A stretch of 60,022 nt of DNA from Planctomycetaceae bacterium (lineage in GTDB: Bacteria > Planctomycetota > Planctomycetia > Pirellulales > Pirellulaceae): assembly GCA_007127095.1 (NCBI GenBank), contig SKZY01000076.1, positions 1 through 60,022 on the forward strand, read 5' to 3'. Of this stretch, positions 57,610 through 59,862 are shown piece by piece. Position 1 is the first letter of the stretch; each line of letters begins with the position of its first letter. The position numbers were made by a program, and so were the translations under genes. Under the pieces are notes generated by a model. The model ran no database searches. It saw only the letters and a program-made list of their open reading frames with translations, and was not told where the DNA came from.

Positions 57610-59382
57610 ATGCTGAACCTCTTTGCACCCCGCCGGCAGGATCTAAAGGCGGACATCCTGTCGGGAATCACCGTTGCGCTCGCCCTGGTCCCCGAAGCGG
57701 TTGCGTTCGCGTTTGTAGCGGGCGTATCGCCGGTGATCGGGCTTTACTCGGCATTCTTTATCGGCCTGCTCACGGCGATCTTCGGCGGCCGTCCGGGGAT
57801 GATCTCGGGAGCGACCGGTGCGATGGCGGTGGTGGTGGTGTCGCTCGTCGCCTTGCACGGGATCGAGTATCTGTTCCCGGCTGTCATCCTTTGCGGCCTG
57901 TTTCAGGTAGCGGTCGGGGTTGGGCGACTCGGGATGCTGATCCGGATGGTACCGCACTCGGTTTTGTTGGGCTTTGTCAACGGTCTGGCGATCGTGATCT
58001 GCGTCGCTCAGTTCGGCAGTTTTCGGACGGTCGACCGACTCGGTGAGTTGACCTACATCGAGGGAGCGCCGCTTTGGATCATGATCGGCCTGGTCGCCTT
58101 GACGATGGCGATCATCTGGTGTTTGCCGAAGATCACGACCGCCATCCCGGCGTCGTTGGCCGCGATCCTGATCGTCACCGCGATCGCGACCGGCCTCAAC
58201 GGCGTGCTCGATTCCGGACTGGCTGCCGAAAATCAGCGGCAGGTGGTGATGACCGTCGGTGACATGTTGGTGACCAATGCGAAGGCACAGGCGGTACAGG
58301 ATTTTGTCGCTGCATCCGCCACCGAATCGGCGAACCGTGACCTGGCAACGGTCGAAGCCGGCATCCGAGAGTCGCTCGAAGGAGTGATGGCCGAATCGGT
58401 CACGCTCAGCGCCGGCCTGCCGAAACCGTTCTTTCTGGATTATGCCTTTCCGCCGCTGACGTGGGAAACGCTGCGGATCATCTTGCCGTTTTCGCTGGTA
58501 CTCGCCGCGGTCGGACTGATCGAGTCGTTGATGACGCTCAGTCTGGTCGACGAGATCACGGAGACCCGCGGCCAGGGCAATCGCGAGTGCATCGGTCAGG
58601 GGATTGCCAACGTGACCTGTGGCGTCTTCGGCGGGATGGGCGGCTGTGCGATGATCGGCCAATCGTTGATCAACGTGAATTCCGGCGGTCGAGGTCGATT
58701 GTCGGGGATCGTCGCTGCGGTCTGCCTGCTGATGTTCGTGTTGTTTCTCTCACCCTGGATCGAAATGGTGCCGATGGCGGCGCTGGTGGGACTGATGTTC
58801 ATGGTCGTCATCGGGACTTTCGAGTGGGCAACGTTGAAAATGTTTGGCAAGGTTCCCAAGGCCGATTATCTCGTCATGGTGGTCGTCACTGCCTACACCG
58901 CGGTGATGCATGACCTAGCGACCGCGGTCGTCATCGGCGTAATCGTCTCGGCACTCGTTTTCGCTTGGCAGCACGGTCGGCACATCGTGGCCGATGTGAA
59001 ATACAACCAGTACGGCAGCAAGATCTACCAACTTCACGGGATGCTGTTCTTCGCCTCGGTCAGCTCGTTCAAGGAGCTGTTTAAGCCGCAGCAGGATCCC
59101 GATGACGTCGTCCTCGATTTCTACTACACCCGAATCTACGACCAATCGGGGTTGGAGGCGATCCATTGGTTGAGCGAACGCTATGCCCAACACGGAAAGC
59201 GGCTTCACCTAACCCACCTCAGTCCCGACTGCCGCCGGTTACTCGACCGGGCAGGCGACTCGGTGGTGGTCAATCTTTCCAGCGACCCGCAGTACCATGT
59301 CGTCACCGACCGCATCGAAGGCTTGGCCGAAGCTGAGCGGTTGGTCACCCGTGATCAGACGGTGTCGCCGTCGAAGGCTTGA
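57610..59382 (+). CDS. SulP-family inorganic anion transporter (bicarbonate/sulphate)
   Basis: 590 aa from ATG 57610 (frame opens at TTG 57580, unsupported). [26 protein letters not shown] is the SulP signature near the N-terminus; 10-12 helices follow, including [18 protein letters not shown], the [52 protein letters not shown] core and a C-terminal STAS domain from about residue 480 ([51 protein letters not shown]). A 100-residue insert between helices (about 205-280) is soluble. The relation to cyanobacterial BicA-type carriers suggests Na+/HCO3- uptake, but sulphate is possible. Preceded by a hairpin-rich leader. Confidence 0.9.
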
Positions 59383-59418
59383 TCGCCAGGCTCTGTCCGA
59401 AAACCGTTCAAAGAGCGT

Positions 59419-59862
59419 CTGGGCTGTCAAAAATTCGGGGTTGACATGTAAAAATAACGTCGGTGCGTTGACAATTTCTTGTCTCGAATCTCGGAGTGCA
59501 AACATCACTACAACGGGAGTTGGCGTGGCCGAAAAGAATGGATCGTTCGGGAACCTTGGATGCTGCGTTGATTACAGCCCGGAGGGCGACACATCGTCGG
59601 CGCGCGTACAAACTGCAACGTTTGTGTCGGCCTCCGGCCTTGAGTACCGCTGTAGGGAATGGTCCGGTGACTGACGCCACCGGCAAAGATTTGTCGGCCT
59701 CCGGCCTGGATTGCTGGCTTCTCGTTCCAGCCCGATGAGCGACATGGAATCTGCGGAAATTGCCGCAGCTCGTCCACCGCATCGGCAATTTAACTCCAAC
59801 CTGACCGACAAAAACCAGCGCACACGAGGTTTCGCAGCAACCCCGAAGTTTTGACAGCCCAG
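59419..59862. mobile_element. MITE-like element with 25-bp terminal inverted repeats
   Basis: Left end 59419-59443 reads CTGGGCTGTCAAAAATTCGG followed by GGTTG; the right end 59838-59862 is its reverse complement with one mismatch in 25 (A to C at position 15). The 444-bp interior has no transposase. Inside are a 16-bp direct repeat (TGTCGGCCTCCGGCCT at 59625-59640 and 59692-59707) and a CCGGTG/CACCGG hairpin. No clear target-site duplication is visible at the edges. The minus-strand frames inside (to 59788 or 59934) look non-coding. It sits 36 bp after the sulP stop. Best reading: a non-autonomous transposon copy. Confidence 0.65.

Follow-up and report, generated by a model that had tools for sequence, protein, structure and literature searches.

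A family of short non-autonomous transposons with structured-repeat cargo and a 9-bp target duplication in Pirellulaceae

MITEAba12 of Acinetobacter is moved by ISAba12; it is 111-114 bp in length, has a co-resident IS with matching ends, and shows no sequence preference (PMC6382973). Other mobile elements are attracted to dispersed palindromic repeats: ISPpu9 and ISPsy8 are REP-targeting IS which carry their own transposase (PMC1525189). Among structured repeats, the Acido-Lenti-1 RNA motif was described in 2010 from Acidobacteria and Lentisphaerae only (PMC2864571). The MITE family of Pirellulaceae reported here is apparently undescribed; literature searches found no account of it.

The window analyzed in this study is a stretch of 60,022 nucleotides of a Planctomycetaceae bacterium, which is the entire contig C279. 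A distance of 161 bp separates the element from the contig end. Its features and those of its neighborhood are as follows.

57610 to 59382, plus strand: SulP-type sulfate permease gene, the upstream neighbor, outside the element (PF00916, E 1.9e-52; STAS domain, PF01740)
59390 to 59419, plus strand: left flank, a truncated copy of the repeat that also flanks the C332 and C261 copies (CTGTCCGAAAACC...), from flank comparison
59420 to 59861, no strand assigned: non-autonomous transposon (MITE) of 442 bp with T...A ends, from its inverted ends, the own-genome copies, and boundaries given by the 9-bp duplications of relatives
59420 to 59443, plus strand: left terminal inverted repeat TGGGCTGTCAAAAATTCGGGGTTG (repeat I1), whose end pattern is conserved in 30 of 241 family genomes
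59420 to 59485, plus strand: left (A-type) arm with the terminal repeat, TTGACA, and an inner TTTCTTGTC motif, from the alignment of 24 A-type arms
59576 to 59640, no strand assigned: inverted pair of palindromic repeats (AGCCCGGAGGGCGACACA / TGTGTCGGCCTCCGGCCT), BIME-like cargo (repeat I3, 18 nt, 89% complementary)
59625 to 59643 and 59692 to 59710, plus strand: 19-nt direct repeats TGTCGGCCTCCGGCC (with GGCCTCCGGCC), 67 bp apart; the unit number differs among C376, C30, and the window
59664 to 59707, plus strand: two-hairpin repeat unit of Acido-Lenti-1-like layout, cargo (Rfam RF01687, 19.8 bits; covariation of both helices; unit dispersed in other genomes)
59807 to 59861, minus strand: right (B-type) arm with the terminal repeat, TGCGC, and TTTTTGTC, from the alignment of 26 B-type arms
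59838 to 59861, minus strand: right terminal inverted repeat TGGGCTGTCAAAACTTCGGGGTTG (repeat I1)

The initial annotation had proposed a 444-bp element at 59419-59862 with 25-bp inverted ends matching far beyond chance. The match itself holds: the inverted arms at 59419-59443 and 59838-59862 are 25 nt long, complementary at 24 of 25 bases (96%), and separated by a spacer of 394 nt. With up to 3 mismatches, the end pattern was found at 2 sites in the 60-kb window, which are the two arms, and at none in 100 shuffles. The boundary, on the other hand, moves inward. Since the family places the outermost base of the element (T/A) one step inside 59419 and 59862, the true element is 59420-59861 (442 bp) with terminal inverted repeats of 24 nt (96% complementary). 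By comparison with the family, the C/G by which the 25-bp match exceeds the element is the final base of the 9-bp target site. The ORFs inside the stretch gave no Pfam match, in agreement with the earlier statement that there is no transposase inside. Small size, inverted ends, and the lack of a transposase gene are what is expected of a MITE. An effect of this MITE on the sulP transcript is hypothetical.

Is this sequence present elsewhere in the genome? When the stretch was used as a query against its own genome, more copies were found on C261, C376, C475, C473, C405, C85, C30, C289, C287, C242, C311, C332, C293, and C209, so that full or partial copies are present on about 15 contigs. The end pattern has 20 matches in this genome, while the reversed control has none. 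Most copies stop at contig ends, many being broken inside the element, as expected for a short-read assembly, which breaks in repeats; by distinct flanks there are about 8 to 13 insertions. The contig ends of C85 and C287 carry the identical GGTTAAACC, which suggests that they are a single insertion split by the assembly. The C376 copy has a duplication in which 8 of 9 bases are identical (GAGTAGCCC/GAGTAGTCC). The copies have common arms and a variable number of internal repeat units; the C376 copy has an additional unit, and its left arm is shortened, while the C30 copy has one unit fewer. A second set of solo ends in the same genome (C109:4599, C282:7162, C265:1073, C425:12771, C463:13840, and C296:6276; L058, L059, L120, L060, L126, and L122, respectively) has an identical tip and a different interior (GCGGCG.TAAGCCGC..., CCCCTC repeats), which suggests, as far as sequence can tell, another MITE subfamily.

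The family extends beyond this species. The pattern TGGGCTGTCAAAANTTNGGNNTTG with up to 2 mismatches matched 30 of 241 Pirellulaceae genomes, some with tens of copies, and gave almost no control matches. The ends are therefore not confined to this locus, as the initial annotation had said they would be, with an interior conserved as a gene or terminator pair in relatives, if its reading were wrong; several dispersed copies exist both in the own genome and in the family. Exact end patterns had no match in the genome contigs or viral contigs searched; a degenerate pattern retrieved 16 stretches, all of them MITE copies or solo ends. The interiors vary by lineage, while the arms are constant. There are two arm types, which differ in having a TTGACA or a TGCGCA motif after the terminal repeat. 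The consensus is TGGGCTG..AAAA..T.GG..TTGACA...TTTTTGTTCC for the A-type (24 arms) and ..TTG.g.c..TT..GT.TGCGCaagTTTT..TCc for the B-type (26 arms); a TTTTTGTTCC-like inner motif closes both, about 50-65 bp from the tip.

Target duplications were assessed in the fetched loci, from which 79 distinct insertions with paired ends could be read. The flanks are at least 8/9 identical in 33 of the 79, exactly at T|GGGCTG...CAGCCC|A, and 9/9 identical in 20, whereas offsets of 1-15 gave 0 or 1 insertions at the 8/9 level. When right flanks were dealt to other insertions, 3.7 reached at least 8/9 and 1.3 reached 9/9; this count is not zero because the target itself is preferred. Lengths other than 9 bp are unsupported, perfect matches of other lengths being almost absent. 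The fraction with a duplication is a lower bound because the set holds some false pairs. Members confirmed by a duplication range from 182 to 691 bp; the smallest, from an uncultured planctomycete, has the perfect duplication ACCTAAGCC, and a 279-bp insertion in the same genus as the window (L174) also has a perfect duplication. In some loci (L163, L165, L168, L250, L251, and L267), elements of different subfamilies are stacked head to tail, and the next element begins at once behind the 9-bp duplication of the preceding one. This arrangement points to a repeated use of one site, as read from the junctions.

An alternative is a decayed IS, a single insertion sequence that was shortened by internal deletion and never moved again as a short element; the inverted ends and the TTGACA of the left arm could be what is left of it. 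Several own-genome copies, however, share the interior as well as the ends at separate insertions, and in G188 nearly identical 327-bp copies lie at many sites with perfect duplications, so the short forms themselves move. There is hardly any chance that such decay explains the element.

The duplications also reveal where the elements insert. Their consensus, GGCTAACGC, is nearly symmetrical, and in 27 of the 79 insertions one of the flanks reads into a hairpin, GGGGCTAACGCCC-NNN-CGGCT. Among the loci fetched from G188, this hairpin is also seen free of any element (12 matches to a loose pattern, a few of which are themselves element junctions). Thus, the target is often a dispersed host hairpin repeat, with a preference for GGCTAACGC-like sites. 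When the element and one duplication were removed, several of the joined flanks recurred intact at other places among the fetched loci, one of them at 98.7% over 79 of 81 bp that include the junction. The initial annotation had recommended a search for empty sites in relatives. What was found are, judging from these alignments, related host-repeat sites without an insertion and not orthologous ones.

Another reading takes the locus as an immobile intergenic structure after sulP, that is, paired terminators or a REP cluster with the outer inverted repeat closing a long hairpin. The intergenic position, the covarying hairpin repeats inside, and the folding of the stretch as single-stranded DNA, which is far better than that of shuffles (z -6.0), agree with it. 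Terminator-like sites, however, are no more frequent than in shuffles (1 found, 1.0 expected), and the ends recur at unrelated sites across many genomes, around other interiors and with 9-bp duplications. As a whole explanation it is refuted by the duplications and the empty sites, and I regard it as very improbable.

I therefore consider, with a probability of about 0.9, that the window element is a MITE of a mobile family, moved by a transposase in trans and carrying its interior as a passenger. The support is sequence-based and consists of the many copies, the common ends, the 9-bp duplications of relatives, the site preference, the related empty sites, and the covariation of the cargo. The MITE-like nature proposed at the outset is strongly supported by the copy number, by ends common to a bacterial family, by the duplications of relatives, and by the related empty sites.

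The window copy itself has no 9-bp duplication; only 2 of 9 flanking bases match. The initial annotation had noticed this and thought of age or an unusual transposase. The observation stands, but an unusual transposase is not borne out: the family makes 9-bp duplications, as seen also in the own-genome copies C376 and C85/C287, and the absence is a defect of the window copy rather than a trait of the enzyme. The left flank of the window, CTCTGTCCGAAAACCGTTCAAAGAGCGTC, resembles the C332 flank up to AGAGCGCC, after which C332 runs through the palindrome to the insertion point. The simplest reading is that a deletion of about 27 bp probably removed the left duplication together with the left flanking hairpin.

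What does the interior consist of? In the window it holds the two-hairpin unit, and this unit is also found alone, without the ends, in many copies in G003, G010, G017, and G019; a tally of cargo matches lying beyond the elements was left out because overlapping loci confound it. In its two helices, 6 of 12 pairs are changed on both sides and 97% of cells are paired; none of 500 shuffles reached this covariation, and slid controls were far lower. The GGCCTCCGGCC repeats are a host repeat in their own right that the element encloses, and this supports the earlier suggestion that internal direct repeats may mark a composite origin. The RF01687 model aligns to the window unit over its full length (model positions 1-46) with 19.8 bits; the gathering score is 37, and the unit is not a member by this measure. 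In a genome of the same genus (G004), L071:1936-1981 is an Acido-Lenti-1 match above the gathering score (49.7 bits). A different cargo is seen in G229, where an element of 691 bp (L313:2943-3633) with the 9/9 duplication GCGCTAGCC contains a 144-aa DUF559 gene. L313 and an element of similar size, about 690 bp, in G151 (L176:6493-7182, duplication 8/9) share the ends of the family and have a DUF559 (endonuclease-like) gene or gene fragment between GGAGGAGAAGGGG hairpins.

Given the palindromic two-hairpin repeats, the element might instead be a REPIN or another kind of REP element, mobilized by a RAYT or an HUH transposase of the IS200 type; the inverted ends would then be accidental. The own genome (G000), however, has no match to PF01797 (Y1_Tnp, HUH), and it is the arms, not the repeat, that are constant. 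HUH transposases are not known to make 9-bp duplications or to use long terminal inverted repeats. As the mover of the whole element, this mechanism is refuted by the duplications, and it seems extremely improbable as an account of the locus, while REPIN/HUH activity may be the origin of the internal repeats.

Returning to a MITE moved in trans, which transposase is responsible? The initial annotation had expected an autonomous relative with the same ends. A search with the ends recovered the several copies described above and no full IS; no autonomous IS with such ends was found in any genome examined, in a search that covered some of the transposase families and, for the own genome, a fragmented assembly, from which repeated IS copies are easily lost. 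The PF01609 profile had no match in the own genome. The 30 PF01609 loci read from nine element-bearing genomes, which are not every PF01609 copy, all have other ends, so no IS with matching ends that would make the element an IS4-type (DDE_Tnp_1) derivative was seen among them. In the parts read of four element-rich genomes, arm searches gave only short spacings, namely short elements and solo arms. The single-arm sites fetched from G188 and G200 turned out to be short elements of the usual kind or solo ends, none of them an autonomous copy, and a scan by eye of all fetched loci for an unpaired end followed by a gene gave no recognized transposase. G188 has an IS (L210 and L226) encoding a 445-aa DDE_Tnp_1 protein, with ends CAATAGTGTTCGGCCCGACG and 9-bp duplications GGACGGAGG and CCCCCGTCC; its ends are unrelated to the MITE ends. 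In G066, four left ends lie at contig ends (L294-L297), with repeat-free sequence beyond (...GATAATGGTCAAAGCTATCCACGAGTATC) and with ATGGTCAAAGCTATCCACGAGTAT. This stretch, to go by its position, could be the start of the gene of an autonomous copy. It had no match in relatives or plasmids, and every G066 copy breaks at a contig end.

From the terminal repeats and the fixed length of the duplication, I infer that the mover is a DDE transposase. Duplications of 9 bp are made by IS5/IS903-type elements and several other families, and they fit an IS5/IS903-type origin; the IS partner of MITEAba12 belongs to that group. The 9-bp duplications led to the rejection of both an IS110 and an HUH mechanism.

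The element would thus be a short DNA transposon with terminal inverted repeats of about 24 bp and longer two-part arms, whose transposase is supplied in trans. A DDE-type transposase may bind both motifs of each arm, cut at the T/A, and insert the element at a target cut with a stagger of 9 bp. The interior would be passenger DNA: in the own species clustered palindromic repeats of the host, with a number of units that differs from copy to copy, and in other species different hairpin repeats or a DUF559 gene. With such a passenger, each jump would also spread structured repeats to new intergenic sites. A wider reading, which I hold only tentatively and think rather unlikely, is a Pirellulaceae-wide transposon frame with constant arms, a cargo exchangeable per lineage (REP pairs, Acido-Lenti-1-like units, or the DUF559 gene), and a transposase preferring one host hairpin. 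If true, such a frame would serve both to generate families of structured repeats or RNAs in intergenic DNA and to disperse them.

How does the family compare with the described systems? Like MITEAba12, it is short and non-autonomous, with terminal inverted repeats and 9-bp duplications, and a duplication is kept in part of the copies (40% in MITEAba12, PMC6382973; 33 of 79 at 8/9 or better here). In contrast, the Pirellulaceae elements confirmed by a duplication are 182-691 bp in length, carry passenger repeats, prefer GGCTAACGC-like sites, and have no IS partner found; their ends are TGGGCTG..AAAA, unlike the GGCTTTGTTGC ends given in the MITEAba12 paper (PMC6382973). With ISPpu9 and ISPsy8 they share the insertion into a dispersed intergenic palindromic repeat, but each of the latter is a complete IS that brings its own transposase (PMC1525189), the Pirellulaceae element has none, and in only about a third of its insertions (27 of 79) does a flank extend into the hairpin named above. 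The cargo resembles REP, BIME, and REPIN sequences in its palindromic units in inverted and direct order with many copies in related genomes; unlike these, the units are enclosed in transposon arms and would move as passengers, and no RAYT was found in the own genome. The layout of a hairpin, a spacer of about 12 nt, and a second short hairpin is that of the Acido-Lenti-1 RNA (RF01687; PMC2864571), although the score leaves the window unit similar in layout and outside the family. What is unusual in the Pirellulaceae family is the preference for a host hairpin together with a cargo of structured repeats. The precise target preference makes the transposase worth finding, and the family offers a concrete way for palindromic repeats of intergenic DNA, among them units that resemble an Rfam RNA, to spread as transposon cargo.
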